From Anaeromassilibacillus senegalensis (GTDB lineage: Bacteria > Bacillota > Clostridia > Oscillospirales > Acutalibacteraceae), in the NCBI RefSeq assembly GCF_001261775.1, contig NZ_LN868535.1, positions 1 through 64,000 of the forward strand: a stretch of DNA of 64,000 nt. Reading direction: 5' to 3'. The notes under the pieces are model-generated. The model worked only from the letters and a program-made list of their open reading frames with translations, did no database searches and had not been told where the DNA came from. Below, in pieces: positions 31,716 through 47,756 of the stretch (within the stretch, counting starts at the first letter, position 1; each line of letters begins with the position of its first letter). The position numbers were made by a program, and so were the translations under genes.

Positions 31716-32015
31716 TTATGCCGCATATTTCCCAATGTTTACACCTTGCAGCTTCCCCAAAATATCACTGGCATAATTTGCTCCACGGCTGGCGAAGATG
31801 CCTGTCAGGATACATCCGACATAGGGCACAGTGAAAGTTGCACCTAGTGCGGCGTAAATGTCAGCCCCGGACAGAATGCACAGGGCGACGGCCGCAACCA
31901 ACGCGCCGATCTGGATAACAGCGGCTTTTCGCTCGCCATTGATAATGGTCTTTACATATTCAACGATTCCTTCAACAGTGACTGCAAGTGTCAGAAATAA
32001 TACGATTGCTTCCAT
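31716..32015 (-). CDS. phage holin
   Basis: 99 residues. An N-terminal helix (VLFLTLAVTVEGIVEYV) is followed by a hydrophobic hairpin IGALVAAVALCIL-SGADIYAALG and a further segment reaching GCILTGIFASRGANYASD. Such phage holins permeabilise the membrane to release the endolysin. ATG 32015 follows AAGGAGG. Lies directly after the XhlA-like gene and amidase. Confidence 0.75.
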   Translation of the reverse strand: MEAIVLFLTLAVTVEGIVEYVKTIINGERKAAVIQIGALVAAVALCILSGADIYAALGATFTVPYVGCILTGIFASRGANYASDILGKLQGVNIGKYAA

Positions 32016-32028
32016 TCGATAGCCCTCC

Positions 32029-32298
32029 TTATGGCTTTTCCAGGCGAGATATACGGCCTTCATGATCGGACAGTTCCCGTCCATGGTCCGCTATTACTTT
32101 GTCCTGTTCTTCATTTTTATCCCAGAGGCGTTTGCGTGCCTCATGTCCGCTTTCTTCCTGCCGTTCCATCCGCACTTCTACGTTTTGCAGCGTGACCGTC
32201 AGCTTCGTAATGTTGGTATTCAGCTTCACAATTGGCCCCACGATCGCACCTACAAGGCCTACCAGGGCGATTATCACACAGACCATCTGCCATTCCAT
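32029..32298 (-). CDS. XhlA-like holin-associated protein
   Basis: 89 residues: one N-terminal transmembrane helix (VCVIIALVGLVGAIVG) and a charged coiled coil to the C-terminus (MERQEESGHEARKRLWDKNE). This is the XhlA/hemolysin arrangement that assists lysis. RBS GGGGG. Confidence 0.7.
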   Translation of the reverse strand: MEWQMVCVIIALVGLVGAIVGPIVKLNTNITKLTVTLQNVEVRMERQEESGHEARKRLWDKNEEQDKVIADHGRELSDHEGRISRLEKP

Positions 32299-32310
32299 AG
32301 CTTGTCCCCC

Positions 32311-33024
32311 TTATATGATCGTCACCGAAAATAGCTTTTCATCATTCGTATATACGCCTGTACTTTCTCCGCATTTACCTGTCGCTGTTATTCCAAATAT
32401 GTATTCGTTCCCCGATTGCCGACCAGTAAAGGTTTTCATAACACTGCCATTTCCCACTGTAAACGATGGTTTTGCAAAGCTTGTCAATTTGACATGGTAG
32501 CTGTTCCCACGCGCCAGAGAAATATCCTGCGTGGTGTCGGAAATCACTTTGTGCAAAGCCATATCAACCATCTTTTTAAATCTGTCCCATCCCAGGTCTA
32601 GCGTCCGATGCGGACAATACTTGCCAGAGTAGTCCTGGTGCTTTGTCACCCGGTCCAGCTCCCAGCCATACCGTGCCATAATCGATGCGGTCAGTTCGGC
32701 TGCGTTCTGTTCGGCTGCTTCAAACCACGCTCCACCACTCTTTGAGTAGCATATTTCAATTGCGATTCCTTCCCTGTTTCCTGTTCCATTCCCGTCGCCA
32801 GCGTGCCAGGCATTTCGGTTTTCGGGTATCGCCTGTATGATCTCCTTGTCATCAACCGCATAGTGAAAGGAGGTCTCCGCATTGTTATGTGACATATACG
32901 CGACTTCGTTTTCAGCGCTCGCATCGTTGGCGGTATTGTGGATGACCACGCGAGTTGGCGTCATCGTATATGGACACTTAATTTTATGCTTGCTGACCGG
33001 AATCATCCTTTGGATAACCGTCAT
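32311..33024 (-). CDS. phage endolysin, N-acetylmuramoyl-L-alanine amidase
   Basis: 237 residues. Amidase_2 domain (about 1-155) has zinc ligands in VVIHNTA and in KYCPHRTLD, with SFHYAVDD and NRNAWHAGDGN. It cuts the bond between MurNAc and L-Ala. The C-terminal 78 residues are the small beta domain also found at the end of the host arabinofuranosidase and in the cargo protein at 40,088. The place in an endolysin suggests cell-wall binding. ATG overlaps the upstream stop (ATGA) and follows GGAGG. Confidence 0.93.
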   Translation of the reverse strand: MTVIQRMIPVSKHKIKCPYTMTPTRVVIHNTANDASAENEVAYMSHNNAETSFHYAVDDKEIIQAIPENRNAWHAGDGNGTGNREGIAIEICYSKSGGAWFEAAEQNAAELTASIMARYGWELDRVTKHQDYSGKYCPHRTLDLGWDRFKKMVDMALHKVISDTTQDISLARGNSYHVKLTSFAKPSFTVGNGSVMKTFTGRQSGNEYIFGITATGKCGESTGVYTNDEKLFSVTII

Positions 33025-33773
33025 TCGACTACCTCCGTCCATTGAGTTGGCGGCTCCCAGATGTTCGCGTCAACATCGCTTGTCCACCGTTTTCCGCCGT
33101 GGCTGACCTTTGCTCCCAGAGGATATGCATCCGTGCTCCCGGCGGGCTGTCTCCACTCCGGCCACTCAACCGCTGGATCGTCGATGCGCACCCAAAGGGA
33201 CGGAGAAACGTCCGGGATCCAGCTCTCCTGTGATGTATGGTCTGTCAGACAGCGATAGAGAAGGCTATTGTGTTGTACCCGGTCGCCGGCAGTGTATTCG
33301 TGGGCCTCCGGAATCCACTCCGGGAACATCCAGATACAGTCTGTTGCCTCTTTGTCCGTCAGCTTTGTGGATGCTGCTTCAATCTGTGTGCGCTTTGCGC
33401 GGGCTGTGGCAAGTAGATCGCCAGATGCGTCTCCAATCACTTCCGCAATTGCACGTGCCTGCGTTTCCGTTTCCTGCAGGAGTTGTACTTCACGGACACT
33501 TTCCATTTTTACCATAGTAACGCTGATCTTAGCGTCTTCGTAAATCGACCGCACAAACATCGTATAGCCGTTCAGGGACTTTTCGGCTTCGTCGATTGTC
33601 ATGGTCTGCGTTTTTTCAGGATTTGTGAAGATTTCACGTAGTTGCGTATCCGTATAGATGCTTGCATCAAAAATAAAGCGTACACCATCACGGTATACGC
33701 CTTTATAGCTTTGTCGTTCTTCACGATTCCCCATCATATTCAATTGAGATTGGTCTGCAAATGTCAATTTCAC
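33021..33773 (-). CDS. phage tail protein with two CBM5/12-like chitin/glycan-binding modules
   Basis: 250 residues. N-terminal 150 residues are helical, with no family recognised. The C-terminal part carries two aromatic modules: YTAGDRVQHNSLLYRCLTDH followed by WIPDVSPSLW, and AYPLGAKVSHGGKRWTSD followed by WEPPTQW. These are the pattern of carbohydrate-binding family 5/12. Probably helps bind cell-surface glycan. GTG start behind GGAG. Confidence 0.75.
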   Translation of the reverse strand: MKLTFADQSQLNMMGNREERQSYKGVYRDGVRFIFDASIYTDTQLREIFTNPEKTQTMTIDEAEKSLNGYTMFVRSIYEDAKISVTMVKMESVREVQLLQETETQARAIAEVIGDASGDLLATARAKRTQIEAASTKLTDKEATDCIWMFPEWIPEAHEYTAGDRVQHNSLLYRCLTDHTSQESWIPDVSPSLWVRIDDPAVEWPEWRQPAGSTDAYPLGAKVSHGGKRWTSDVDANIWEPPTQWTEVVE

Positions 33774-33789
33774 AATTTACATCTCCTTA

Positions 33790-35001
33790 TTACGGGTTAC
33801 TGGTATTAACCGCTGGGAACAAGTTGATTTTAAGCTTTGCATCTGTTTCTGCATTTTCCAAAGCGATACCTAGTTTTGCATCGGATTCCCAATTTCCCAG
33901 TTTTATGTACCCATTAGCGTTATATACACAATAAAATTTAACGCTGTAGGCTACAAAGTATGGCTCGTTAAGTTTTCCAACATAAAGATATTTTCCGTCT
34001 AATGAAAAACAAACAGCATAAACGTTACTTTCTGCTATCATCGGCGTATTAAGGCGAACAAAAGTATCTCCGTCTCGTTTACATACAGTTAAAAATGGAC
34101 TTCTCGAGTGTCCTGCGGCAAGGTAGTTTCCATCTGGAGAAAAATTCACACTAAAAATTGACGCAGACGGAGCAAGAATGATACTAGACAGTTTTGTAAA
34201 CGTATCGTCTATGCGCTTGTAGACTTCTAAGCATTTATCCCCACCGGATGCAAGGTATGTTCCGTCCGGAGAAAAACACAAACTTTGAGGTGTTCCGTCT
34301 GAGGCATCAACCGTGTTTATTTGATTAAATACGTCTCCAGACCTTTTAAACATTAGCAGGGTGTTACTTATCCCCACGGCTAAATAAATTCCATCTGGAG
34401 AAAATCCAACGCTGTAAATATCATCGGATATAGTTATTGCATTGGATAATTCGGTAAAATTATCGCCTGATCGTTTGTATATTTTTACCGAATGCGCAAA
34501 CATAAATCCAGCAGCAAGATAATTTGCATTGGGGGAAAATGACATTGAAATGGCTTGATCCGGAGCTTTTAATGTTGGTGTTGATAATTCTGTAAAGGCA
34601 TCACCTGATCGTTTATATATAACAATATCGTTTTCCCTTGACACAGCCAAATAAGTGCCATCAGGGGAGAAACATATTGCCGGAATCCCACTTGATAGAT
34701 CTACCGATATTGACAGTTCAGTTATAGTTTGTCCTGATCGTTTGTAGACTTTAAGATATGGTGCAGCCTCATATCTCACCGCAATATATTCGCCTGTTAA
34801 GCATGATACAACATATACTTGCGCATCAGGTGAATTCGGAATATCCAAATAATCCACTATATCGCCACCCCAATCCAGCGTGGGAATCGCTGCTATAGCT
34901 TTATCTTTTGTTATATCCTCCTTGGCAACTCCAACTTGTTTATCTTTCCAGCCACGTGGAAAACCACCCGCACCCGCACGTCCTTTTATAACTGTTGACA
35001 C
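33790..35001 (-). CDS. WD40-like beta-propeller phage tail protein
   Basis: 403 residues. The N-terminus (GGFPRGWKDKQVG) is shared with the next upstream paralog. Then about seven repeats occur of the form FSPDGxYLAxG followed by YKRSGDxFTxL, which make a beta-propeller. The C-terminal NANGYIKLGNWES is again shared with the paralog. Likely displayed on the tail tip and used for receptor contact. GTG start behind GGGGAGG. Confidence 0.75.
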   Translation of the reverse strand: MSTVIKGRAGAGGFPRGWKDKQVGVAKEDITKDKAIAAIPTLDWGGDIVDYLDIPNSPDAQVYVVSCLTGEYIAVRYEAAPYLKVYKRSGQTITELSISVDLSSGIPAICFSPDGTYLAVSRENDIVIYKRSGDAFTELSTPTLKAPDQAISMSFSPNANYLAAGFMFAHSVKIYKRSGDNFTELSNAITISDDIYSVGFSPDGIYLAVGISNTLLMFKRSGDVFNQINTVDASDGTPQSLCFSPDGTYLASGGDKCLEVYKRIDDTFTKLSSIILAPSASIFSVNFSPDGNYLAAGHSRSPFLTVCKRDGDTFVRLNTPMIAESNVYAVCFSLDGKYLYVGKLNEPYFVAYSVKFYCVYNANGYIKLGNWESDAKLGIALENAETDAKLKINLFPAVNTSNP

Positions 35002-35123
35002 TGTGAACCCTCCCCTCGCCCAATAATTACCTTAACATTGCTAGAATAAACGATAGAGATATAATTGCTTTCCAGAGTAAAGAACTGACCGCTGTTAGGA
35101 TATAGCTTCCTTAAAGTTTGCAT
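34986..35123 (-). CDS. small phage protein, 45 residues
   Basis: ATG 35123 follows GGAGGATAGC by good spacing. The frame ends 16 bp inside the downstream beta-propeller gene, whose ribosome site lies inside its last codons. Beta-prone; no relatives recognised. Confidence 0.55.
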   Translation of the reverse strand: MQTLRKLYPNSGQFFTLESNYISIVYSSNVKVIIGRGEGSQCQQL

Positions 35124-35124
35124 G

Positions 35125-36357
35125 CTATCCTCCATTTACTTCCGGAAATAGATTGATTTTACAAGAACTCCCCGCAGATGCACTTTCAACCGCTACTCCT
35201 AATTTTGTTGAAGGATCCCATGTACCAGGTTTTATATAATTTTCAGCATTGTAAACATCATACAATCTCGAACTTAATCCTATTATTTTATTTAATAGAG
35301 TTGATGTCATATACACAATATCATTTTCTGGTGAAAAGCAAGCACATGTTATACGAGCATAATCACGAAATTTTCTATTTAGCAATGTAAAAATGTCTCC
35401 TGACCTTTTATAGATATACAACGTTATAGTCTCTTCGGGTACAAGTAATAAATAAAGCCCATCTGAGGAAAAAACAACAGATTTTAATGAAATATCTTCT
35501 GCAATTAATTCTACCGATGATTCCGCAAGTTTTGTGAAAGTATCATTGGATCTTTTGTAGATAATTAAATAAGGTTTTTGTTTAATTCCAACCGCTAAAT
35601 AAATTCCATCTGAAGAAAATGATAAACTTTCTATATCACCTTCTACTAATACGGACAACTCCGTAAGTTTCGTAAGTGTGTCTTTAGAGCGTTTATAAAT
35701 ATATAAACTTGCTTTTTTAGAACTTCCAATTGCTATATATGTTCCATCTGCGGTAATACTTATTCGATGTGCATTTTGCAGTCTCTCGTATGGAAAATAA
35801 AGCTCTGTAAAATTGTCTCCTGACCGTTTATATACATAGAGTGCGGTCGTGGTTATACATGCTAAATAATTTCCATCAGAAGAAAAACACAAATCTACTA
35901 CACTAGCTGAAATGTTTACTGCATCTGTTAAATTTACATAGGTATCTTCTATTCTTTTATAAATGGTTATAAATGGTTGAACAAGAAATCCTGCGGCCAC
36001 GTACAATCCATTCAAAGAAATTGACATGCTGTTCATTAAACTGTCGACTCTATCAACCGGCCCTATGAGTTTTGTAAAAGTGTCTCCAAATCTTTTATAA
36101 ACGTCTAAATTTGAATCTGCAAAACCTCCACACGCCAAATATTTTCCATCAGAAGAAAACAGCATGTAATTTACTACTGGAGTTGGATTTTCAGAAAAAG
36201 AGAGATTCTTTAAAGTTCCCGTTTCTAAATCTATATGGGGCACCGCCGCTATCGCACTATTTTTTGTAATACTTTCTTTCGCAGTTCCTGTGCATTTTTC
36301 TTTCCATCCCTTTGGGAATCCGCCCGAACCCTCATCTCCACCTATAATGGTTGCCAC
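35125..36357 (-). CDS. WD40-like beta-propeller phage tail protein, paralog
   Basis: 410 residues, same plan as the protein at 33,790: GGFPKGWKEKCTG head, about seven FSSDGxYLA/YKRSxDTFTKL blades, and a NAENYIKPGTWDP tail. The two are diverged copies, more AT-rich than the neighbouring tail genes, which suggests acquisition or rapid change. The GTG shares its G with the TAG of the gene upstream and follows GGGGGG. Confidence 0.75.
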   Translation of the reverse strand: MATIIGGDEGSGGFPKGWKEKCTGTAKESITKNSAIAAVPHIDLETGTLKNLSFSENPTPVVNYMLFSSDGKYLACGGFADSNLDVYKRFGDTFTKLIGPVDRVDSLMNSMSISLNGLYVAAGFLVQPFITIYKRIEDTYVNLTDAVNISASVVDLCFSSDGNYLACITTTALYVYKRSGDNFTELYFPYERLQNAHRISITADGTYIAIGSSKKASLYIYKRSKDTLTKLTELSVLVEGDIESLSFSSDGIYLAVGIKQKPYLIIYKRSNDTFTKLAESSVELIAEDISLKSVVFSSDGLYLLLVPEETITLYIYKRSGDIFTLLNRKFRDYARITCACFSPENDIVYMTSTLLNKIIGLSSRLYDVYNAENYIKPGTWDPSTKLGVAVESASAGSSCKINLFPEVNGG

Positions 36358-37415
36358 TATGTATCCCCCCTCAGAATGACGCGTACCGGTATACTTACCG
36401 TTGGTTTCTCCCCCCATGCTTTAAGGGTAATAGTTCCCGCCGACTGTCCTCCATCCTGTAAATTGGCCTCTTGGTATGCTTCAAGTTCTTCCGCCGTAAT
36501 GGTGGCACCTGGAATCAGATCCTGATTGCTGGTTGCCGTTACTCCAGAAATATTTAAAGTATACGTATATGGCACCGCCGTTCCAGTCCATGAAGAAGCC
36601 CTCAGCGTGGCAGATTCCGTCGTACTCTTATCTGCTTTACCGTTTATTAAGTTTAATAGTCGGCCTGCTGCATCTTCGCTAATGACACTTTTCGCTGTTT
36701 CAAACCAATTATAAAACTCCGTTTGAAAACGCTGCAGTTGCGCGTCTGAAGTCATAACAAAGTTATTATTTGTTCTATCAAATACCGTTACATACTGTGC
36801 TTGCAATTCTTTGTAGTCTTCCCATATTCCCTTCGTATCAGCGTTAGGAATACTCTTCATTAAGCCTGCGATGGGTTTCCCATCGGTTGGATGCACAGTT
36901 GTATTTAACCGTTGATCTGTAATCATCGACTGCGTAATCGCCGTAGAATCACTGGGAATTACGATTGTAGCGAGCGCAACCTCGTAATTTAAAGACTCAT
37001 GAGAAATGTTGCTTTCAAGAGATGCATTCGCTGCACGCTGCTTTGCAGCAACATAAATCTCTGGTTTCTCGCTTCCCAAATCCATCCGTAGAACAATATC
37101 GGTTGTTTTACCAGCTGCAACTTGTAACGTCACTGGCAAGCTCGCAATATATCCCCTACCCTTGATCATGGCCACACCAGGCGAGACAACAACCTGCAGC
37201 CCGGAGCCCGCCGTAACTGCTAAACTCGATCCAATATAATCTTCCGGGTTATCATCCGGGCTTGTAATCGCCATTTGCGGCGCAATGCCTGTCGTGTACA
37301 AGCATTCAAAAAAGCTTGCCAGATCCTGCGCCGCATACTGGTAATAGGCCAGCTCATCTTCCGTAAGCGTCCCGGCTGGTTTATCCCAAAAGAATGATTT
37401 TTCACCTAAAGCCAT
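36357..37415 (-). CDS. phage baseplate/tail tip protein
   Basis: 352 residues. N-terminal half has SGLQVVVSPGVAMIKGRGY and related strands typical of upper-baseplate and fiber-adaptor proteins in Firmicutes siphophages. The C-terminal half has an Ig-like stretch (TYTLNISGVTATSNQDLIPG). Located between the Gp37-like protein and the propellers. Confidence 0.6.
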   Translation of the reverse strand: MALGEKSFFWDKPAGTLTEDELAYYQYAAQDLASFFECLYTTGIAPQMAITSPDDNPEDYIGSSLAVTAGSGLQVVVSPGVAMIKGRGYIASLPVTLQVAAGKTTDIVLRMDLGSEKPEIYVAAKQRAANASLESNISHESLNYEVALATIVIPSDSTAITQSMITDQRLNTTVHPTDGKPIAGLMKSIPNADTKGIWEDYKELQAQYVTVFDRTNNNFVMTSDAQLQRFQTEFYNWFETAKSVISEDAAGRLLNLINGKADKSTTESATLRASSWTGTAVPYTYTLNISGVTATSNQDLIPGATITAEELEAYQEANLQDGGQSAGTITLKAWGEKPTVSIPVRVILRGDT

Positions 37416-38561
37416 TTATTTTCCCCCTGTCCGTATTTGTCGCTCCAATAGTTGCAAATTGGTCTTCCTGGGCTTTCCAAAGGTTCCCGTTATCCCATAA
37501 CCTTTCCCCTGCCATTCGTGCGTAACACTGATAAGCTGAACATCCGCATACTGGTTAAGGACTCTATCGCGGATCGTCACAAAATCACCTAAATAGAAAT
37601 CTTTGTTGTAAACGAAGCTGCTGTTTAGCTCAACTGTGAAGGTGTCGTCTTTCTCGAAATTTGTTGCTTCTTTGCGGGCAAGGTTCTGCATTTCCCCGAC
37701 GACGTCCGACGCTGTATCATCTACATTCACATTAATTTGCGTCTCATATCGTTCGCGGCCTTCCGGTTCCGCGTCATTTTCCCGGCAGACCAGCAGCGTC
37801 GTCTCCTCAGCCTCGGAGCGTGCACCGCTCTTCGTTGTGTAAAACGCATTGCGGTAGTTCTCCACGTCGCTGACGAAGTGACTGTCCAGAGCAGTCCGCA
37901 AGTCCACATCCAAAATGATACGCGGTCGGTCTGATTGTCCGGCTGTACGGTCTGTACCCATAACCACATCAAATACCATGTTCCCAGCAGATATATCCAC
38001 ATCCACCTTATATCCAAGCTCCTGGGCCGCACCGACCTCCTGTAACAGTTCGTCGAGCCGGTTAAACCGTGCCATGTACTTGTCATCCGCAATGCCTCTG
38101 CCCTGATCGGCGGCAACGGTAAAACCGGGAATTGCGCGTTTGGTATTGGCCGGGGAAACGATATTATTGATTACATAGTGCTTCATTACGGTTTCCGTGC
38201 TGCCGGATACCGTGTCATATCCTTTCAAATCGCTTCCCGATGACGGATACAAACAAACGCGCTGCTTGAGGTATCCTTTCAGGTCGTCTCCACTGCGGCC
38301 AATCGGTGCGGCGGTCGCGGTGCGCTCATCGTCAAGGCCACGGATAATCCCCCATAGGTAGACGTTGTTGCCGCGCACGCTGATGAGATTCCCTTGCTGC
38401 AACGCGCTGGCATAAGCATCAAAGGCGGACAGCGACATAGACCAGGAACCCGGCTCATAGAGGTTTTCTGTCCACGAAAGCGATTGCGGAACAATCTTTC
38501 CCAGCTGGCCTTCCTCCAACGTTTGGCTGCCGGTTATCGGACTAAATACACGTATATCCAT
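37416..38561 (-). CDS. siphovirus Gp37-like tail protein (Tal position)
   Basis: 381 residues, starting MDIRVFSP. Resembles the ReqiPepy6 Gp37-like family that follows Dit and takes the place of the Tal/prophage-endopeptidase tail protein. It ends with the LGDFVTIRDRVLNQY and HEWQGKGYGITGTFGKPRK segments. The ATG overlaps the Dit stop codon (TGATG) and follows GGAGG. Builds the tail tip hub. Confidence 0.75.
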   Translation of the reverse strand: MDIRVFSPITGSQTLEEGQLGKIVPQSLSWTENLYEPGSWSMSLSAFDAYASALQQGNLISVRGNNVYLWGIIRGLDDERTATAAPIGRSGDDLKGYLKQRVCLYPSSGSDLKGYDTVSGSTETVMKHYVINNIVSPANTKRAIPGFTVAADQGRGIADDKYMARFNRLDELLQEVGAAQELGYKVDVDISAGNMVFDVVMGTDRTAGQSDRPRIILDVDLRTALDSHFVSDVENYRNAFYTTKSGARSEAEETTLLVCRENDAEPEGRERYETQINVNVDDTASDVVGEMQNLARKEATNFEKDDTFTVELNSSFVYNKDFYLGDFVTIRDRVLNQYADVQLISVTHEWQGKGYGITGTFGKPRKTNLQLLERQIRTGGK

Positions 38562-39430
38562 CAGACGCCTCCAAACTGTTTCCGCCAGAACATGTATCCC
38601 AACGGCTTTGTCGTTTGTCCGCCGCCGTCCAGGTTGATGACATTGCGGCCGCGCTGTAAATACCAATAATCGCTGTCCAGCGTTAGGTAGTGGCTGGCAT
38701 TCTCGATGAGCTGTCCGGTAATGGCGGAGTTGATCACCGCTGTTCCGCGCTCCGTGTCCACTTCCAGCTGTTGCGCGGAGGTGATTGCGCGGTTAAACTG
38801 CATGAATTGTCCGGTCGTCTGATTGGTTATAGTAACACTTTCAGCCGTTCCCATTACGACGATGCGCACGGGTAAATTGTCGTAAGTATCATTAATGACG
38901 GCAAACTCTGTTGTATAGGTGCCGAAAGTGAAAGTTGGGTCGATCACCAGGGGGAAGGACAGACCGCCTAAAACCGCACCCATGCGAACGACTCGATCAC
39001 TGCGTTCTTTCCATTTTGGATTCTCCGTAGATTGGAAGGTCAGGCTGAACTTCTCGTAGCTACCGATTCTGTCAAAGCCGGCGGGGATCTCCAAAAAGCG
39101 TCCTCGCAAGGAATACGCGCCGGTATCATTCTCATAAGTCAGCGTGCCCTGATAATTCAGGTCAATTGTATTAGCCAATTTTTGTTTCATTTGCTGCAAG
39201 TTTCCCAGATCAAACCAGCCCCGCTTGTCACCACCCAGAATCGCAACCTCTATTGGCACGCTGCGCTGATCGTATCCGGTCGCGTAAGTATTATAGATCC
39301 CGCCAATGGACATATCGCTGTCCTCGGTGCTTCCGACGCCCATCGTATCAATACTGGACAAAAGATACGGACCAACCTCATCAAAGACAATGATCAATCC
39401 ATTATCGGATACATAAGTTACTTGTTCCAT
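38561..39430 (-). CDS. distal tail protein (Dit)
   Basis: 289 residues of the phage tail component family: N-terminal ring domain with the belt hairpin YEKFSLTFQSTENPKW, then a galectin-like C-terminal domain. It joins tail tube to the Gp37-like hub. It lies directly after the cargo slot rather than after the tape measure, and a terminator sits just upstream of it. Confidence 0.8.
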   Translation of the reverse strand: MEQVTYVSDNGLIIVFDEVGPYLLSSIDTMGVGSTEDSDMSIGGIYNTYATGYDQRSVPIEVAILGGDKRGWFDLGNLQQMKQKLANTIDLNYQGTLTYENDTGAYSLRGRFLEIPAGFDRIGSYEKFSLTFQSTENPKWKERSDRVVRMGAVLGGLSFPLVIDPTFTFGTYTTEFAVINDTYDNLPVRIVVMGTAESVTITNQTTGQFMQFNRAITSAQQLEVDTERGTAVINSAITGQLIENASHYLTLDSDYWYLQRGRNVINLDGGGQTTKPLGYMFWRKQFGGV

Positions 39431-39460
39431 GCTTCACCTCCTGATTTTGGGCATGAAAAA

Positions 39461-39487
39461 ACCGCGCCCCAAAACGGAGTGCGGTTC
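39461..39487 (-). terminator. terminator between cargo slot and Dit
   Basis: ACCGC/GCGGT stem enclosing a GGGGC/CTCC loop, followed by T6 on the minus strand, about 30 bp upstream of the Dit ATG. It may stop antisense-strand transcripts leaving the slot; late transcription must pass it. Confidence 0.6.
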
Positions 39488-39516
39488 TTGTCAATGTTTG
39501 GCTATTGTGGTATTAT
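39488..39516 (+). promoter_or_regulatory. toxin mRNA promoter
   Basis: TTGTCA (39488-39493), 17-bp spacer, TATTAT (39511-39516). The transcript would have a leader of about 88 bases. Confidence 0.8.
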
Positions 39517-39610
39517 ATTTTCTGTAAGGTGTTATCAAGACGCTGGGCGGTTGCCCCTCCATTCCTGGAGGGGATCGTTTCTTTTCCCCTCCACGAGAGG
39601 GGGTGAGGCC

Positions 39611-39706
39611 ATGATTACATATTCAGAGCTATTTCAGCTTTGCAGTGTACTCCTGGGTATTGCGACGTTCGTTTGGACTGTTGCAACTCACACGAAAAAG
39701 AAATAG
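39611..39706 (+). CDS. holin-like type I toxin
   Basis: 31 residues: MITYSELFQLCSVLLGIATF, then VWT and a Lys-rich end THTKKK. One transmembrane helix with a basic tail is the pattern of the small holin-like/Fst/TxpA toxins. The ribosome site GGGGGTGAGG is inside a CCCCTC/GAGGGGG hairpin, so translation is probably throttled. The gene is on the plus strand, against the late genes. An antisense RNA gene overlaps its 3' end. Confidence 0.85.
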   Translation: MITYSELFQLCSVLLGIATFVWTVATHTKKK

Positions 39707-39783
39707 CCGCCCTACCCCAACAAAGTAAGCGGCTAATTCTTTAGCTAATTACGAGGGGCAACCGTCTACTGGTAGCACCTTAC
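39694..39783 (-). ncRNA. antisense antitoxin RNA
   Basis: Predicted start near 39783 from a consensus promoter, running leftwards over the toxin mRNA 3' end to a shared dyad AGCCGC (39705-39710)/GCGGCT (39729-39734) followed by TTTCTTTTT on the minus strand. It overlaps the toxin mRNA tail by about 40-90 bases, the RatA/TxpA plan. Length about 90 bases. Confidence 0.75.
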
Positions 39784-39789
39784 GTGTTT

Positions 39790-39818
39790 ATTATAGCCTC
39801 CTTTCTTTTTGTTGTCAA
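39790..39818 (-). promoter_or_regulatory. antisense RNA promoter
   Basis: Perfect TTGACA (39818-39813), 17-bp spacer, TATAAT (39795-39790); stronger than the toxin promoter, as expected for an unstable RNA antitoxin. Confidence 0.85.
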
Positions 39819-39831
39819 TCCGTTTTCTCAG

Positions 39832-39938
39832 CATTTGATCCACTCACCCCTTACAGGGTGAGACAATCCAGTATGCTCGCACTCCGGAGGAAAAGGCGAT
39901 TTCAATCCACTCACCTTTTACAGGTTACAGGGTGAGAC
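39832..39938 (-). CRISPR. mini-CRISPR array: two type I-C-like repeats, one spacer, no cas genes
   Basis: On the minus strand, repeat 1 (39938-39899) is GTCTCACCC with a palindromic centre and the I-C end GGATTGAAAT; its centre carries a 7-base tandem copy of CCTGTAA. The spacer is 39898-39865 (34 bases). Repeat 2 (39864-39832) is GTCTCACCCTGTAAGGGGTG followed by AGTGGATC and a degraded end, as usual for a terminal repeat. No cas gene is present in the window, so processing would rely on a host system. The spacer matches 41,642-41,675 in the tape-measure gene at 28 of 34 positions. Confidence 0.85.
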
Positions 39939-40022
39939 TATATAAAATGGCATTTGCTAATAATACCGTAACACCTCCACAATCAACAAACAAGATATTT
40001 TGGATAATTTAATCTTTTTCTC

Positions 40023-40051
40023 TTGCGGAAATTGCTGTTGCATCTTATAAT
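40023..40051 (+). promoter_or_regulatory. promoter of the cargo protein gene
   Basis: TTGCGG, 17-bp spacer, TATAAT (40046-40051), followed by AGGAGG before the ATG at 40088. Independent of the late operon, so active in the lysogen. Confidence 0.8.
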
Positions 40052-40087
40052 ATAAACAAATTACGAACTAACTAGGAGGTAAATTTT

Positions 40088-41047
40088 ATGAAAAAGAAAA
40101 GAATTATGGCGCTATTTCTTTGCGTTGCGTTATTACTATGCGGCCTTCCGATGGCCTCCGCTGCTACGCAGCCTTATGTAGAAAGTGATACTACCGCAGA
40201 CTTCACAAAACCCCAGGGAGATTACTACTGGTTTAAATTCACTGTGCATGGGACACATGAAGACCCGAAGATAGCAGCAGGAAACGGCAGCATATTGAAA
40301 ACTGGTAACTGTAAGAAAATGAAAAATGTTAACGGAGAGGATGAATACCGCTTTCAAGTCTTTGCTGTCGGTAAGCCAGGTGAAGCCTCTGCCATTTATA
40401 CCACTTTGCCGGGACAAAATCCTGTTAAACACTGTGTAATTACTATAGGACAACCTCAACCTAAAAAAATTACAACCGCCAACAAAATGAACAAACCTTC
40501 AATTGTATATGTTGAGCCAGCTAATTCGGGAACTGAGCTTTGGGAACGTCTTTCAAAATTTAACACCTTAGAAACAAATTTAGGAACTCTAAACTTTAAC
40601 ATAGTCATCAGAGAAAATTCAAGCAAATACTATGCATATGATTACAGTATTAAATTTGAATGTTCACTTTCGGATTTGCAAGGACCAATAGATAACATAA
40701 AATATACAGATGAGCAAAGAGCCACCTACTATAAAAAATTAAAAGAACATATGGAGCTAATCGCCACTACTGCTGAGGCAGCAGCACCAGGTAAGAAGCT
40801 AATTGGCGAATATTATAACTACTATTATGAATACCCGGCTTTACAATTAGATTTAGTAGAGCATCAACTCTTTGGTTTTGCAAATTTCGTTAATCGAGGA
40901 GGTTATGATGCCGAATGGAAACAGTACGACGAATCGCCTATAAGTGAACTCCATTGGATAATAGCTAGAGATAATATTGATGTCAATTACGAAGGAATAC
41001 AAAATTATTCGGCCTTGAGAGGTATGCGTGAGGGTTATTGGTGGTAA
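40088..41047 (+). CDS. secreted prophage cargo protein with shared beta domain
   Basis: 319 residues with a signal peptide (1-25, ending ASA). Residues 31-121 are the small beta domain also present in the host arabinofuranosidase and the phage endolysin. Residues about 130-319 are a separate domain with many Tyr (YYAYDYSIKFE, EYYNYYYEYPAL), not recognised. It opposes the late genes, has its own promoter and sits in the tape measure-Dit gap: a lysogenic-conversion (moron) gene. It ends 3 bp from the tape-measure stop codon. Confidence 0.8.
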   Translation: MKKKRIMALFLCVALLLCGLPMASAATQPYVESDTTADFTKPQGDYYWFKFTVHGTHEDPKIAAGNGSILKTGNCKKMKNVNGEDEYRFQVFAVGKPGEASAIYTTLPGQNPVKHCVITIGQPQPKKITTANKMNKPSIVYVEPANSGTELWERLSKFNTLETNLGTLNFNIVIRENSSKYYAYDYSIKFECSLSDLQGPIDNIKYTDEQRATYYKKLKEHMELIATTAEAAAPGKKLIGEYYNYYYEYPALQLDLVEHQLFGFANFVNRGGYDAEWKQYDESPISELHWIIARDNIDVNYEGIQNYSALRGMREGYWW

Positions 41048-41050
41048 TAC

Positions 41051-44000
41051 TTACCTTCTCCCATACAGCAATCGTTCCGCTTGCCGGTCCATTAGTCTGG
41101 CTACCTGGCCCTCAGTAAGACCACGGGAAATGTTGTTTGTCACAAGCATGCTACGATTATCGCTGCTGCTATATGCTACAGCCGTACCGCTCCGGTATGA
41201 GCGTTTTGATCGTTCTATGGAGCTTTCCAGGCGGGCTACAGCATCCTGCACCTTGGCAACCATTGCATCAATGGTTGCTTGCGCCTGTGTTTTAACGGTT
41301 TGAAAACCGTTACCTAATGCTGAATTAGTGGCATCTGCAAATCTCTTCCCAATGGACAAAGTCTCCTGATTAACATAACCGTACACCTGATACAGTCCTG
41401 CCTCAAAGGATTTAAAAGAATCTTCTAGCACTTTGAGTGCCTGGTCCCTGGCCTCCTCTGCGACGGCCAGGGACTTTTTGCGTTTTTTCTCAAGCCGTTT
41501 TTCATCTTCTTTGTATTCTTCCTCAAGATTTTTGAGGCGTTCTTGATGTACTCGTTTTTCAGCTTCTAATTCATTAACTTCCTTTTTTACAGTTAAATCC
41601 TTTAACTCTTCTTGCTGACGTTTGAGCTCTTTCTCTAATTCTGCCCTTTCCTCCGGAGTGCGGGCGTATTGTATTTGCGTTTGCAAATTCTGGATTTTTG
41701 TCTGCGCAAAAGCTAGATCATCGTTAAGTTTTTCTTCGTCTCGGGCACGCTTTCTTGCGTCAATTTCCCGCTGTAGCTCTGATATAATTCCATCTACACG
41801 GTCTTTTTCGGCCTCATATTCCTCTTTTATAATATTTAGGCGTTTATCATAGCTGTCATTGATCGCTTTGATTTCCGCTTCGGACTGTTCCTCTACTAGT
41901 TCTTTCTGTTTGGCGTAATAATCCTTTGCCAGACCTATCTGGTCCTCAAATGCGCTCCGCAAGGCGCTCTTTGTGTCGTTCTTCATCTTATTTTCTAACT
42001 TGTAAATTTCCTGTGCGTATTTGCGGAAATTATCCTCGTCAATTCCATAATAGCTGTCACGGATTTTGACCAGCTCGTCTATATACTCCTGTTCACTAAT
42101 AAACTCCATTTCGCGCTTATATTTCAGCTCGTCATAGAGCTTTTCTTGCCACGTTTTTTCTTTTTTAGCGCTTTCTTTTTTCTTTTTTTCAGTTGCGCTA
42201 AAGTCTACATCTTCGACATTAAGCTCAAAGGCACCCTCGAGGTCGGTGAGTGGTTTCATTAAGTCAATCATGCCTTGAATCTTTTTGCGCTCTCTTTCAA
42301 CTTCCCAAGTTGTCCAATGCGACGCATTACGTTTGGGCCCAGCACCCCTCTCGTTGAGCTGCGCGAGCTGCTGTTCCATCGCCTCAACCGTCTTCGCGGC
42401 GTTTCCTCCGACGGCACTGTAATACTCCTGCCATTTTTTAGACAGCTGCGTGATCAAGTTCTGCTCGATGTCGCCTTTGGCCTGTGCTAGAGTAGACCAG
42501 TTACCACGATCCCCGCGATATTCTTGTTCTAGGTTTCTAAACAGCTCGCTATTTTTGTTTTTCAGCGTGCGAAAAAAGTCCTCGTTATCCTTATACTTTT
42601 GCATCATGGTGGCACTATACTGTGCGGACTCTTCTCGGTATAGCGCCGGAAACTGCTCAATAAGTTCTTTTTCGTCAATGATTCCTGCCATATAATCATT
42701 TAGATATGGCATAAGCTCTGAATAACTTTCGCCAAGCGCCCTAATCGTGCTGATTGACAGTTTACCACCGTCCACTGCCTCTTTTTGGGCCGAAGCCAGC
42801 GTTTTAAGGCGTTTTTCGCTACCCTCCAGGCTTTCCATAAGCGCGTCTGTGTCCATCAGGCTGCTGTTGACGCCCTCCGTGGCTTCCTGCGCGTCTCCGG
42901 CTGCGGCGGAATACTCATCGAGCATCCCGGAAAGTTTGTTAATGCCATCCCCTGCTGCATCTATTATATCATTTTGTGTATCTATGTCTTCGGTGAAATT
43001 CTTTATCTGGCTGTCAATAGCATCAATTTGGTTTGTAAATACATCTGCTGTAGGATCTATTTCGCCGTATTTTTTTAGATAATCCACTTTTGCCTGCTCT
43101 AGTTTTTCGCGTTCAACTTTCAGTTCCTCTATTTTTTCGTTATCGCTTATAATTTCTTCCTGCGCCTTTATTTGTTGCGTATAATAGTCGGACATTTTGG
43201 CTTTGGTCGCTTCCGCTTTTGCTTGAGCCTTTAATGCTTCTACATTTTTGTAGATTTCGTCCGTATTCATTTTCAGATGGCCTGTTATATTATCAATGCT
43301 TGCAGCTTCATATCCTAGCACCTGATTTAGTTCTTCAACTCGGCTGGCCAGTAGCTTTTTCCGTGTAGCTACATCCTCTACAGTTTCGTCAATCTTTTGC
43401 ATTTCCGGGACAAGCTGCTTTGATACCATTTCCAATTCGCCTAATCGGCTTGAGGCATCTTCTATTCCCGATGTTTCAATATTCGCGACCTCATCATTTA
43501 AATTTTGCAGCTGTTCCTGGCTCTCTCGCAATTTCCTAGTACTTTCATCCGCTGCCTGTGCAAATACCAGCATCCCGCCCACTACGACAGCCAACGCACC
43601 TGCAAGCAGGACCAGTGGATTGACGCTCAAAGTTGCATTAAATGCTGCCTGAGCGACGGTTGCACCTTCTGTGACTAATTTATTCTTGAGCATAAAAGCC
43701 GCATTAATTTCCTGCGCCACCTTCCAGGCACCATAGGCTACAACTAACGCTCCCAACATCTCTTTATGTTTAACTAGTGCTTCCGTGGTTCCTAACACCA
43801 CCTTAGTAATCCCACCAAACACAGCTCCCCACTGTTTGGCTAGGGCAGATAGCTCTCCAGACTTTTTGAGTTCTGCAAACTCTTGTGATATTCCTGCCAA
43901 TGCTGATTTAGTTTCTGCAAAAGCCTCTTCGCCAATCTCGCGCGCAAATGCCCCCATGTTGTCTTTCAAGGTACTCCACTGGCCGGCCAATGTCTGCGAC

Positions 44001-45022
44001 TGCTGTTCCATCATACCGGCAAACTTTCCAGTTCCCGTGGTCAATCCTTCAATCGCTGAGTCTAGCTCCGGAATGCCCACCTGGCCCTTTTCGATAAATC
44101 CCATCAACTCCGACGTTGCAATCCCCATATTATCCGCCAATGCCTGCGTTAACGGTACGCCTGCTTCGGTCATCTGCCGGAGTTCTTCTCCGGTAACTTT
44201 CCCCTTTGCCAGCATCTGGCCATAGGCAAGAGAGATACGGTCCAGCTTGTCCGCCTGCCCTTGGGATAAGTCTCCCAAATGGGTCATTGTGGTAATCAGG
44301 TCTTTAGCCTCGACGCCGTAGTTCATCAAGAGCTGCGCGGCTTTGGTCACATCAGGTAACTGATACGGTGTTTTTGCCGCAAAGTCCTGCAAGTCAGACA
44401 TTAGATCCTTTGCGGACTGCATATTTCCCAGCATGACCGCAAAAGAGGTTTCGTACTGCTCGAATTGAGATAGACCGCCAATGGTCGCCTCCAAAAATGA
44501 CCGCGTCGCACGCATGGCAAGCATGCTTTTGAGCATTGACATCATAGATCCCAACCGCTGTGACATGGTACTGAGAGACGATGACGCGGCATTGCTTGAC
44601 GACGTGATACGGCCATTATTAGCAGCCTGCTGCGCCAGCGCCTGATTGACGCTAGTCAACTGTGAGTTTAGCGCCTGTTCGCGGCTACGGAATGCCTCGA
44701 TCCGTTGTGTCAGTTGAGCGGTCGTCCGCTCTAGCGATGCTTTGGTCTGCAGTAGCCGCTGTACCTGCGTGGACTCCTGGCCGTACTGCGCAATTGCGCG
44801 CTGTATGGCGGCCGCATTGCGTTCTCTTGCGCTGGTGTTGCTGGCTAGCCCACGGGACGACACGTCCAATTTCCGCTGGTTTTGTTCCAGCTCCTGCGTG
44901 AGGGCCCGCTGTCTGGCCTGCATCAGAGCCGTTCTTTGCACCGCCGCGTCGATGCTGCTGTTATATCGTGATGTATCGCCTACAATTTCAATCGTAGTGC
45001 GCCCAATTACATTATCCGCCAT
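41051..45022 (-). CDS. phage tape measure protein
   Basis: 1323 residues, corresponding to a tail of roughly 190-200 nm by the usual 1.5 angstrom per residue. N-terminal coiled coil, the tape-measure core (about 170-400, FEQYETSFAVMLGNMQSAKD and GEELRQMTEAGVPLTQAL), a hydrophobic stretch PLVLLAGALAVVVGGMLVF near 475, then very long coiled coils. The segment encoding QYARTPEERAEL (about 41,642-41,675) is the CRISPR spacer match. ATG behind GGGGTGA. Confidence 0.95.
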   Translation of the reverse strand: MADNVIGRTTIEIVGDTSRYNSSIDAAVQRTALMQARQRALTQELEQNQRKLDVSSRGLASNTSARERNAAAIQRAIAQYGQESTQVQRLLQTKASLERTTAQLTQRIEAFRSREQALNSQLTSVNQALAQQAANNGRITSSSNAASSSLSTMSQRLGSMMSMLKSMLAMRATRSFLEATIGGLSQFEQYETSFAVMLGNMQSAKDLMSDLQDFAAKTPYQLPDVTKAAQLLMNYGVEAKDLITTMTHLGDLSQGQADKLDRISLAYGQMLAKGKVTGEELRQMTEAGVPLTQALADNMGIATSELMGFIEKGQVGIPELDSAIEGLTTGTGKFAGMMEQQSQTLAGQWSTLKDNMGAFAREIGEEAFAETKSALAGISQEFAELKKSGELSALAKQWGAVFGGITKVVLGTTEALVKHKEMLGALVVAYGAWKVAQEINAAFMLKNKLVTEGATVAQAAFNATLSVNPLVLLAGALAVVVGGMLVFAQAADESTRKLRESQEQLQNLNDEVANIETSGIEDASSRLGELEMVSKQLVPEMQKIDETVEDVATRKKLLASRVEELNQVLGYEAASIDNITGHLKMNTDEIYKNVEALKAQAKAEATKAKMSDYYTQQIKAQEEIISDNEKIEELKVEREKLEQAKVDYLKKYGEIDPTADVFTNQIDAIDSQIKNFTEDIDTQNDIIDAAGDGINKLSGMLDEYSAAAGDAQEATEGVNSSLMDTDALMESLEGSEKRLKTLASAQKEAVDGGKLSISTIRALGESYSELMPYLNDYMAGIIDEKELIEQFPALYREESAQYSATMMQKYKDNEDFFRTLKNKNSELFRNLEQEYRGDRGNWSTLAQAKGDIEQNLITQLSKKWQEYYSAVGGNAAKTVEAMEQQLAQLNERGAGPKRNASHWTTWEVERERKKIQGMIDLMKPLTDLEGAFELNVEDVDFSATEKKKKESAKKEKTWQEKLYDELKYKREMEFISEQEYIDELVKIRDSYYGIDEDNFRKYAQEIYKLENKMKNDTKSALRSAFEDQIGLAKDYYAKQKELVEEQSEAEIKAINDSYDKRLNIIKEEYEAEKDRVDGIISELQREIDARKRARDEEKLNDDLAFAQTKIQNLQTQIQYARTPEERAELEKELKRQQEELKDLTVKKEVNELEAEKRVHQERLKNLEEEYKEDEKRLEKKRKKSLAVAEEARDQALKVLEDSFKSFEAGLYQVYGYVNQETLSIGKRFADATNSALGNGFQTVKTQAQATIDAMVAKVQDAVARLESSIERSKRSYRSGTAVAYSSSDNRSMLVTNNISRGLTEGQVARLMDRQAERLLYGRR

Positions 45023-45026
45023 TTAA

Positions 45027-45233
45027 TCACCCCACGCTAGGAAAATCATTTTTCAGGTCTGCTAGGTTATCATATTGGACATAACGCCGTCCACCAATTG
45101 CTACTTCTTTTCCCTTGTACTTTTTGCCCGTGCCATACTTTAGAGAGACGTACCGGTTGATTCGCATCAGGATTTCTCCTGGCGTCGATAGCCAAAAACT
45201 TTCAGGGCTTCGTCCAAGTTCGGCTGTCCACAT
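45027..45233 (-). CDS. tail assembly chaperone, frameshift extension (gpT-like)
   Basis: This frame has no start of its own: it overlaps the end of the 45,167 gene in the -1 frame and continues to 5 bp before the tape measure. Slippage of tRNA-Phe on the T5 run at 45198-45194 (GTT TTT GGC read on as TGG) would give a fusion of about 204 residues. This matches the lambda G/GT arrangement universal at this position. Confidence 0.75.
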   Translation of the reverse strand: MWTAELGRSPESFWLSTPGEILMRINRYVSLKYGTGKKYKGKEVAIGGRRYVQYDNLADLKNDFPSVG

Positions 45234-45640
45234 AACTTCAAGAGCGCACCAATCGCAGCCACCACCGTCTCCTTCATCTGTTCCCCCAGGCTATTCTCAC
45301 CCTCCGGAACTTCCATCTGTTCCAACGCCAGTGTATACAGTTCCAATGATACCGCCGCGATGGTGTCCGGATCAAACCATTGTCCCACCTGATACAGGGA
45401 TGGTTTTAAACCGTTCAGGTCATCTCTGTTGAAAACCTCTGCGTTCTCTGGGTAATTGCAGAGCAGGAACGCGCGGATAAAATGCTTTTGCGTCTTAATA
45501 TCCTGCGCGTTCGCCGCCTGCTCAATGCCGCCGCAGGTTCGTTCCAGATAATCGAGTGCGTTCAGATCCATCCGTAAGGTCATTGGCTTTTCATCTATCG
45601 TGATGGTATGACAATTTTTTCTTAAACTCTGCAGCTTCAT
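45167..45640 (-). CDS. tail assembly chaperone (gpG-like)
   Basis: 157 residues, helical, acidic, between tail tube and tape measure. ATG 45640 follows GGAGG; an ATG four codons earlier overlaps that site. The last 22 codons overlap the -1 frame extension, so both the short and the extended product are expected, and together they hold the tape measure during tail assembly. Confidence 0.8.
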   Translation of the reverse strand: MKLQSLRKNCHTITIDEKPMTLRMDLNALDYLERTCGGIEQAANAQDIKTQKHFIRAFLLCNYPENAEVFNRDDLNGLKPSLYQVGQWFDPDTIAAVSLELYTLALEQMEVPEGENSLGEQMKETVVAAIGALLKLCGQPNLDEALKVFGYRRQEKS

Positions 45641-45657
45641 TGATTCCTCCATAAAAT

Positions 45658-45680
45658 TAAGGCGGGAGTTATCCCGCCTT
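45658..45680 (-). terminator. terminator after the major tail protein
   Basis: GGCGGGA/TCCCGCC stem with 4-base loop followed by TTAATTTT on the minus strand. It probably lowers expression of downstream tail genes relative to the tube protein. Confidence 0.75.
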
Positions 45681-45685
45681 TTTCA

Positions 45686-46330
45686 TTAAGACACTTGACC
45701 AGTCGTTGTAATTCCCGCTGTTCCCTTCGTAAACCATGTAGTCGCCAAAGTGGCAAACTTCTCGTCGTCGCTTTGGACACTGAACAAGAAACTGCCGTTT
45801 TTGTTGCCTCCGGTAAACGGAACTTCGTAGTTCAGCGGCACGATGGTTCCGACCAGCTCCGCCGTCTGATAGTTGACGCTTTCGTTTTCCGTCTCCGCGT
45901 TTTCAGAGGGCGTCGCAAATACGACTTTTGCGTACTTCTCCAGGATATAAATGTCATCGGTCAATTTGACGCGGTGCGCACAGATGTATTCCGGGGATAC
46001 GTCGTTCGATCCCTGCACCGTCGCACCCGCTGTGTTTTTCTTTGCTCCCAGGACGCGTTCTTTCAATGTGGGAGTAATAGACGGGATCACATAAGTGACC
46101 GTACCGCCTTTATTGGATTTCACGGACTTCTGCTTTTTGTTAGAGCTGTAGAAGTCTCCTTCCGCCATTTCCGGCGCATAAGCTTTGGACACCACACATT
46201 CGGACAAGTCGATCAGATTCGCATCATCCGTGGTAAGCGTCGTTTTTGTGTCTTCCGTTACGGGGAACAGAACCAGGTCAGAAACACCCAGAATTGGCGT
46301 TACGTTAACGGTTAAAGGCGTACTTGCCAT
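45686..46330 (-). CDS. major tail tube protein
   Basis: 214 residues, starting MASTPLTVNVTPILG. Beta-rich, with NVTPILGVSDLVLFPVTEDT; it lies directly upstream of the chaperone pair, followed by a terminator. ATG 46330 is 10 bases after AGGAG; a GTG three codons earlier is too close. Confidence 0.8.
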   Translation of the reverse strand: MASTPLTVNVTPILGVSDLVLFPVTEDTKTTLTTDDANLIDLSECVVSKAYAPEMAEGDFYSSNKKQKSVKSNKGGTVTYVIPSITPTLKERVLGAKKNTAGATVQGSNDVSPEYICAHRVKLTDDIYILEKYAKVVFATPSENAETENESVNYQTAELVGTIVPLNYEVPFTGGNKNGSFLFSVQSDDEKFATLATTWFTKGTAGITTTGQVS

Positions 46331-46335
46331 AAATA

Positions 46336-46737
46336 TCACACTCCTAATTTAACTGTAAAAGTAAAGGTAATTCGTTTTATGTACGTACCCGTCGCAGACT
46401 CAAAACTGTCGTCGTATTGCGTCCTGCGGGATTCATAAATGGTTGATAATACGCTGCAAAGGTTACGGGCTAAATTGTCCCTTTCCGGCTCTGTGAACGC
46501 CCTGACCTCAAAGTAATACGTGAAATTTACCGTCTGTGCCGTATTAGATATGTAATTCCGCACCAGAGAGCCCAGAAGGTAAAATACAGCCGCTGGATAG
46601 GTGGTTTGCTTCGAGAACCAGCCCGTCTGTAAATTGGGAATCGCGCTTTTCCCTATGGTGACAATGTCAGGAACAATGTCTATTTGATAAATGTCTTCCA
46701 CTTGAACACATTCGTCTATTGCATTCTTGTAATACAC
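46336..46737 (-). CDS. tail terminator/completion protein
   Basis: 133 residues, mixed alpha/beta, with the FTYYFEVRAFTEPERDNLAR and TYIKRITFTFTVKLG ends seen in tail terminators located just before tube genes. GTG start shares its G with the TAG of the previous gene. Confidence 0.6.
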   Translation of the reverse strand: MYYKNAIDECVQVEDIYQIDIVPDIVTIGKSAIPNLQTGWFSKQTTYPAAVFYLLGSLVRNYISNTAQTVNFTYYFEVRAFTEPERDNLARNLCSVLSTIYESRRTQYDDSFESATGTYIKRITFTFTVKLGV

Positions 46738-47123
46738 TATTTCAACACCTTCCTGACTTCACTTGCTACAACCTGGGCTATATTATCCCGATTGGCATGC
46801 ATGGCCGGCCGCATAAATGGTTTGGGTGGCTGTCCTGCCCAGTCAACACGATGATCCACCGACGGCTCCCCGCTCTGCCCGGTGCCAAGCTCAACATAGG
46901 GCCCATATTCAACATTAGTTCCGACAGACGCTACTGGTTTATCTCCATCCATACGTTTTTCTGTGGTGATACTGCTGCGCAACCTGCCAGTATCAACCGG
47001 ACACAAGCGCTTTGCATCGCCTTCTACCAGCAACCCGGCTTTAAATATGCCCATGCTGGCCGCTGTCTGCACCCTCATTTTCTGCGCCTGCAGCAGGGTA
47101 ATCAATTTGTCCATGTCATTCAT
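46737..47123 (-). CDS. HK97 gp10-like neck protein
   Basis: 128 residues. CPVDTGRLRSSI and YGPYVELGTG followed by PPKPFMRPA are the signatures of the HK97-gp10 family, a head-tail joining protein. ATG 47123 follows GGAGGG. Confidence 0.88.
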   Translation of the reverse strand: MNDMDKLITLLQAQKMRVQTAASMGIFKAGLLVEGDAKRLCPVDTGRLRSSITTEKRMDGDKPVASVGTNVEYGPYVELGTGQSGEPSVDHRVDWAGQPPKPFMRPAMHANRDNIAQVVASEVRKVLK

Positions 47124-47451
47124 TGTCTGCCCTCCTGCCAGTGCTTGCCACAACAAGCTGTACCGGCTCATATGGCGCAATGGAGACGATCCGATAGAGA
47201 TTGCCCTCTATGATAATCTGTGCATCTGGCACAGGCACAGGCGCGGAGAAGATCACAGTATACGCTTCCTCCGCTGTAATTCCTATCGCCTGCCTCTCAA
47301 CGGGATCCGAATAGGGGTACTTTTCAGCTGTGACTGTGGTGTCTTGAGACGTCAACACCGGATGTCCATAGTCATCTGTATTTCCATTGAGATCTGGAAC
47401 AACAGACCTTACAATTACTTTGCAGCTATTTCGCGGGTTCGGTCTCCACAT
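47116..47451 (-). CDS. head-tail adaptor / head closure protein
   Basis: 111 residues, beta-rich; position between connector and gp10-like gene fits the head-closure (gp16/Ad-like) role. Starts at ATG 47451 behind AGAGG, 26 bp inside the connector gene. Confidence 0.65.
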   Translation of the reverse strand: MWRPNPRNSCKVIVRSVVPDLNGNTDDYGHPVLTSQDTTVTAEKYPYSDPVERQAIGITAEEAYTVIFSAPVPVPDAQIIIEGNLYRIVSIAPYEPVQLVVASTGRRADNE

Positions 47452-47755
47452 TACGTTCAAACCTCTTTCCTGCGATTGACGCCAACGGTTGCGGCAACAG
47501 ATGACGTACTGCCATCGGCAGCTCTTCATAGCTCACGGATACTCCGCCAGAGCTATGCGCGGTCTCTCCTTCTCGTCCGATACGGTTGTATAGCAACACC
47601 GCCACCGCCCGGACTCCTGCCTCATAAGCAGATACATCATTCCGGCGCGTCATCTGTTTGACAACCGCTTCTGCATCCGCTACAAGGGCTTCCAACTGCT
47701 CAAATGGAACATCAGGAAGCTGCGCTTCAAGAGAAGCGTAAACACAACTATCCAT
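47426..47755 (-). CDS. head-tail connector protein (gp6/gp15-like)
   Basis: 109 residues, all helical (PFEQLEALVADAEAVVKQMT, AYEAGVRAVAVLLYNRIG), directly after the capsid gene. This is the usual connector that binds the portal ring. No strong ribosome site; it starts 1 bp after the capsid stop codon, so coupled. Confidence 0.75.
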   Translation of the reverse strand: MDSCVYASLEAQLPDVPFEQLEALVADAEAVVKQMTRRNDVSAYEAGVRAVAVLLYNRIGREGETAHSSGGVSVSYEELPMAVRHLLPQPLASIAGKRFERNVETEPAK

Positions 47756-47756
47756 T

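Follow-up and report, generated by a model that had tools for sequence, protein, structure and literature searches.

The window, by which we mean the whole stretch of 64,000 nucleotides analysed from Anaeromassilibacillus senegalensis (contig NZ_LN868535.1), contains a prophage (IMG/VR 2775506835_000001, 36841 bp; 28168..64000) that runs beyond the window end and carries terminase, portal, capsid, and tail genes. Its tape-measure gene (41051..45022, minus strand) encodes 1323 aa and matches PF20155 and the PHROG tape-measure families, and the distal tail protein Dit (phrog_33) is encoded on the same strand at 38561..39430. Between these two genes we find a short CRISPR-like array. A 319-aa ORF with a signal-peptide-like start (40088..41047, plus strand) is inserted between the tape measure and the array and has no PHROG or Pfam match. 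On the other side of the array lies a 31-aa ORF (39611..39706, plus strand), hydrophobic with a lysine-rich end, which is a putative type I toxin without a Pfam match; antisense to it runs a minus-strand promoter, TTGACA-17-TATAAT (39790..39818), with 12/12 consensus bases. Promoter-like sites in the region numbered 2 against 1.8 expected from shuffles, and an Rfam scan of 39400-40150 gave no match up to E = 1. Elsewhere in the prophage we observed two adjoining ORFs with strong WD40/beta-propeller matches (33790-36417), three copies of one sequence, spaced 336 and 350 bases apart, next to a small helix-turn-helix ORF (60842-61804), and a HicB-like antitoxin ORF at the prophage edge (62160-62585).

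As the preliminary description had proposed, the array consists of two type I-C-like repeats around one 34-nt spacer (39865..39898, minus strand), and it reads on the minus strand from 39938 to 39832. The 5′ repeat, R2 (39899..39938, minus strand, 40 nt), has its 3′ tag TGGATTGAAAT intact and a loop enlarged by ~7 extra bases. Its stem of 6 bp is weak, and the canonical hairpin makes up only ~31% of the ensemble, an alternative fold being preferred. The terminal repeat, R1 (39832..39864, minus strand), forms a strong hairpin with a fold of -13.5 kcal/mol, and its 3′ end is altered to GGATCAAATG. The type I-C repeat form, with an initial GTC, a 7-bp stem, and an 11-nt tag, is therefore present in the R1 stem and the R2 tag, the R1 tag being the changed part. 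For a single crRNA the required parts are all intact, namely the R2 tag that gives the handle, the spacer, and the R1 stem that gives the hairpin. When the sequence upstream of the array was compared with nine other leaders, none scored above shuffles, and a promoter scan of the region recognised none for the array itself.

The spacer resembles a site within the prophage's own tape-measure gene. At 41642..41675 on the plus strand, behind a TTC at 41639-41641, 28/34 positions are equal, with mismatches at spacer positions 1, 5, 22, 25, 28, and 31, which confirms the match as first described. The second-best site within the window reaches 22/34, and 500 dinucleotide shuffles of the spacer, with the array masked, gave a maximum of 24/34 anywhere in the window, ruling out a chance match; the uniform-base expectation of a match of at least 28/34 is ~5e-7. 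When the array was searched by blastn in the genome that carries it, the hits were the array itself, the tape-measure site, and two matches of 19 bases (E 0.175), which we attribute to chance. Read in the tape-measure frame, the spacer gives IQYARTPEEKA and the own gene IQYARTPEERA. Five of the six differences are synonymous third-position changes and one is AAG/AGG (Lys/Arg); the preliminary description had the Lys/Arg change and the synonymous changes right, and its count is corrected here to five synonymous changes by including the first base of the spacer (GCG/GCA). The TTC lies opposite the codon GAA, which encodes E1128. Escape mutations described for I-C in P. aeruginosa lie at positions +2 and +3 (PMC7913775), where spacer and own site agree, the mismatches falling at 1 and 5 instead. 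From the sequence, weak self-cutting of the own site is plausible.

Related tape-measure genes indicate where such a spacer could have come from. The source genome (3.51 Mb) belongs to a genus sample of 4 genomes that includes it, among which one other genome, G127, is the sole other carrier, with a prophage whose tape measure is 71% identical. The G127 site also equals the spacer at 28/34 positions, with a different set of mismatches (4, 10, 19, 22, 29, and 31). Between the own site and the G127 site there are 9 differences; at 4 of these nine the spacer agrees with G127, at 4 with the own phage, and at 1 with neither, and it differs from both phages at one further position. Because the spacer shows 6/34 differences to each of two phages that differ mutually at 9, it is a third allele of the family's tape-measure gene. 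The mixed siding at the nine variable positions makes a plain duplication of the own tape-measure gene less likely, and the spacer may be an old sample of a common ancestor. In an IMG/VR phage (2833756388_000003, of which L040, L105, and L123 are the stretches used here), the site in L040 equals the spacer at 26/34 positions. TTC, in accordance with the I-C PAM consensus (PMC7913775), stands 5′ of the target in the window, in G127, and in L040.

At the protein level the targeted segment is highly conserved. The exact 11 residues encoded by the spacer occur in 5/23 other tape-measure homologues (P0003-P0007), one of which, P0005, has 89% identity to the tape measure of this prophage overall. 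The Lys/Arg position is Lys in 19/24 proteins and Arg in the other 5, including that of this prophage, and I1117, A1120, R1121, P1123, E1124, A1127, and E1128, within or beside the site, are invariant in 24/24 homologues. Since these residues are invariant, escape of the target could come mostly through synonymous changes, for which the carrier's own copy is an illustration. At the DNA level, a scan of IMG/VR with the exact coding pattern matched this prophage as its sole hit (L009 of IMG/VR is 100% identical to the window across 12,699 bases), the same pattern found no match in the GTDB genomes, and blastn with the spacer found none in annotated phages. The perfect match anticipated in phage collections was therefore not found, the best being 28/34 across IMG/VR, GTDB genomes, and annotated phages. 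With the tape measure as query, tblastn returned 292 records of annotated phages, none of which spans 80% of it. The earlier proposal that the spacer derives from the tape-measure gene of a related phage holds in so far as the match is to the family and not simply to the own copy, and is unsupported in so far as no DNA target in the collections searched exceeds 28/34.

A related phage carries an array in the same place. The tape measure of 2833756388_000003 has PHROG tape-measure matches and is 63% identical to that of the window in its best segment. Downstream of it and on the same strand, L105 contains an array in which six repeats enclose five spacers and which is preceded by a leader that ends in TTTGCT; this leader end is absent upstream of the window array, and the two sequences do not align there. 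From GGATTGACA onward, L105 and the window are 82% identical over 351 alignment columns, nearly reaching the Dit gene of the window, and both the 31-aa ORF and its antisense promoter are conserved. The ORF differs between the two phages at 20 bases, 13 of them at third positions. We read the small ORF and the antisense promoter as a putative type I toxin-antitoxin pair. As the L105 array occupies the same slot beside the same small-ORF and antisense-promoter locus, the array is evidently inherited in this phage lineage, to judge by the alignment. The R1 loop GTAA is common to some L105 repeats, and the R1 stem has CA/TG where L105 has TG/CA, so the base pairs are kept. In L105 the GTGGATTGACA of the terminal repeat doubles as the -35 box of the promoter; a junction comparison shows 20 bases in the window that L105 lacks (39818..39837, minus strand), and that lie between its terminal repeat and the antisense promoter. 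The five L105 spacers have no convincing target among the sequences compared and no match to the tape measure of L105 itself.

The host possesses the machinery that such an array would need. We found one cas8c and one cas1 in the host genome, both in a type I-C operon on contig C12 that is complete (cas3, cas5c, cas8c, cas7, cas4, cas1, and cas2, all open frames with each model above its cut-off). The absence of cas genes from the prophage thus holds for cas8c and cas1, whose sole copies found in the genome sit on this other contig. The array adjoining the cas operon has repeats such as GTCAGGCTCCGTGCGAGCCTGTGGGTTGAAAT. Host and phage repeats differ in their stems and have a common geometry of GTC, a 7-bp stem closed by C-G, and an 11-nt tag. 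The phage stem was found nowhere else in the host genome and in only one of the 397 other genomes of the family searched (G350). A host I-C system with the same repeat had been predicted; the complete operon bears out the system but not the repeat, the repeats of the host carrying another stem. One spacer of the cas-adjacent array (L007 11003-10970) is a near-perfect inverted repeat and looks like a terminator. In the same-genus genome G200, on contig C9 (L062 and L063), cas8c is split across two frames and an array of at least 11 repeats lies nearby.

Stem pairing was compared in ten repeats chosen to cover the range of stems observed: R1, two from L105, one each from G350, G200, and the prophage at 122 kb of contig C11 in the host genome, and four host repeats, with R2 left out for its insertion. 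All 67 scored stem cells pair (67/67), 21 of them changed on both sides. Among 500 shuffles, none equalled the percentage paired, the number of both-sides-changed cells, or the covariation score, and 87/500 and 85/500 equalled the number of both-sides-changed pairs and of further pair types, respectively. One genome with a single operon carries several stem variants, which suggests that the stem sequence is not critical.

We propose that the array is a prophage-borne, cas-less type I-C mini-CRISPR. Its guide matches the tape measure of the phage family to which the carrier belongs, and the I-C Cas proteins of the host are predicted to use this guide for excluding related phages, an interpretation we hold to be somewhat better than even in its chances. 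Cas5c would cut the array transcript at the hairpin bases to yield a single crRNA with the handle TGGATTGAAAT, and this crRNA, together with Cas8c, Cas7, and Cas3, would cut incoming sibling DNA at a tape-measure segment in which the family conserves the residues, among them the Glu encoded by GAA, the codon that would supply the TTC. Six mismatches, two of them (1 and 5) near the PAM, would protect the tape-measure gene of the carrier itself. Exclusion is the reading that we favour because the handle, spacer, and downstream hairpin are intact and because the array in the same slot of the relative shows long retention. Counted against it are the lack of an exact DNA target in the collections searched, of a recognised array promoter, and of a host array with the phage stem, the absence, among the sequences compared, of convincing targets for the spacers of L105 and of the two other host prophages, as well as the position of mismatches 1 and 5 off the published I-C escape positions. 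With no recognisable leader and a weak R2 hairpin, present activity of the array is uncertain.

The same observations bear on the main rival explanation, in which the array is the decayed remnant of an ancestor that had a leader and several spacers, both lost here, so that the guide no longer works. The missing TTTGCT leader end, the enlarged R2 with its reduced canonical hairpin, the changed R1 tag followed by 20 extra bases, and the single spacer against five in L105 would all be expected from decay. However, what has survived is the set of parts for one crRNA, the R2 tag, the spacer, and the R1 stem, and the R1 stem still pairs despite a sequence that differs from L105. We regard decay as a real but doubtful possibility. 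Two further alternatives assign the array another role. The repeats could act as an RNA anti-CRISPR of the Racr kind, a decoy for host Cas5c and Cas7 in which the spacer is incidental; prophage Racrs have been published, among them one for I-C (PMC10651486), and the repeats here are of I-C form. Racrs are solitary repeats, however, whereas here two repeats enclose a full-length spacer with a TTC-flanked match to a conserved site of the family, and the stem is unlike the repeats of the host, all of which makes this role improbable. We consider it very unlikely that the transcript serves as an antisense RNA lowering the prophage's own tape-measure mRNA during lysogeny. The guide is indeed the strand opposite that mRNA and could pair with it at most positions, but six mismatches, two of them near the PAM, suit self-avoidance better than self-pairing, and the array in the same slot of L105 has no match to its tape measure.

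Exclusion of relatives by a guide of this kind has precedents in virus-borne mini-arrays, those of archaeal SPV1 and SPV2 and of phages (PMC6858448, PMC11656645, PMC7099407). As described there, such arrays have 1-2 spacers, no cas genes, and spacers against close relatives, the homologous site of the carrier is altered (here by six mismatches), and the target lies near the array, all of which is common to the present case. In contrast to the reviews of mini-arrays, in which the repeats are given as identical to those of the host, the stem here differs from the host repeats. Phage mini-arrays are also said to lack host-type leaders (PMC6858448, PMC7099407), unlike the arrays of L105 and of two further prophages in this host, whose leaders are of host type and end in TTTGCT. 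Because its working would be that of a mini-array, yet the identity of its repeats with those of the host was tested and not found, we call the array an I-C variant of the virus-borne mini-array with a diverged stem. Likeness to the Racrs (PMC10651486) extends to a prophage-encoded CRISPR-repeat RNA without cas genes; as described, they have no targeting spacer.

A further parallel comes from Clostridioides difficile, in which prophages are described with CRISPR arrays beside type I toxin-antitoxin pairs (PMC6563280, PMC6079278). The likeness lies in a prophage array that adjoins a short ORF for a hydrophobic product and a promoter antisense to it. The C. difficile arrays are described as subtype I-B with the repeats of the host, whereas the form here is I-C and the phage family another, and in L105 the -35 box and the terminal repeat share bases. 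In 2018 the link between prophage arrays and type I toxin-antitoxin pairs was called never reported outside C. difficile (PMC6079278); if our reading is true, it extends to another phage family and subtype. Our literature search, of partial coverage that allows for print elsewhere, found no paper joining "CRISPR mini-array" and "tape measure", and among the titles and abstract openings covered, which are no proof of absence, none had this arrangement for I-C. Arrays in the same slot of two related phages, with stems that differ and pairing that is kept, make it testable whether Cas5c reads shape rather than sequence, and likewise whether a phage carries guides across hosts.

Further arrays are present in the host genome. 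Allowing ≤3 mismatches, a repeat pattern gave 19 matches, made up of the cas-adjacent array and six further places, against 1 for the backward control. Two of the six are in prophages, three look chromosomal and lie near FIVAR-domain, MnmE, and Mg-chelatase genes, and one is degenerate and near an integrase gene. The degenerate chromosomal array at L085 9700-10060 (contig C9, ~483 kb) adjoins the MnmE gene and has several different stems. Both prophage arrays are on contig C11, have host-like leaders, and lie upstream of tape-measure genes. At 122 kb (L083 9532-9965) seven repeats enclose six spacers ~0.9 kb from the gene, with one 245-aa ORF between; at 12 kb (L086 9931-10025) two repeats, the second degenerate, enclose one spacer within ~0.1 kb of it. 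The leaders of these two arrays resemble each other (score 180, with ≤26 in 50 shuffles), and that at 122 kb scored 31, 34, and 53 against three leaders of the host genome (shuffles ≤25).

The seven spacers of these two prophages have no convincing target among the sequences compared. The spacer at 12 kb encodes NQFIDWVNDKL, which agreed at ≤6/11 residues with 120 listed tape-measure family proteins, the same maximum as for shuffled peptides, and its coding pattern matched only that prophage itself in IMG/VR. The last spacer at 122 kb equals its own tape measure at 20/33 bases, and a match of 22/34 behind TTC between a spacer of this array and an anti-repressor-like gene of L040 was too weak to claim. 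The data therefore do not support the tape measure as the usual target of such arrays, as the spacers at 12 kb, at 122 kb, and in L105 gave no convincing tape-measure target among the sequences compared.

A wider model can be offered only tentatively. The phage family may keep a resident CRISPR slot beside the tape measure, tied to a type I toxin-antitoxin pair, with repeats that vary in sequence and not in shape and hence would be readable by the I-C Cas5c of different hosts; its guides would exclude siblings at a residue-fixed tape-measure segment, and in polylysogens like this host several prophages with arrays near their tape measures would provide a single chromosomal I-C operon with guides in trans. 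This host, in which three prophages each have an array near a tape-measure gene, would be a natural test system. In IMG/VR at large, pairs of neighbouring I-C repeats occurred in 28 stretches; for 10 of the 28, the largest ORF within 4.5 kb was compared with PHROGs, and 2 were tape-measure proteins (L105 and L118), a count from which we claim no enrichment. A type I-C-like array is also seen in MT838203.1 (L093 3151-3600), a 5.6-kb unannotated record of a faecal "bacteriophage".
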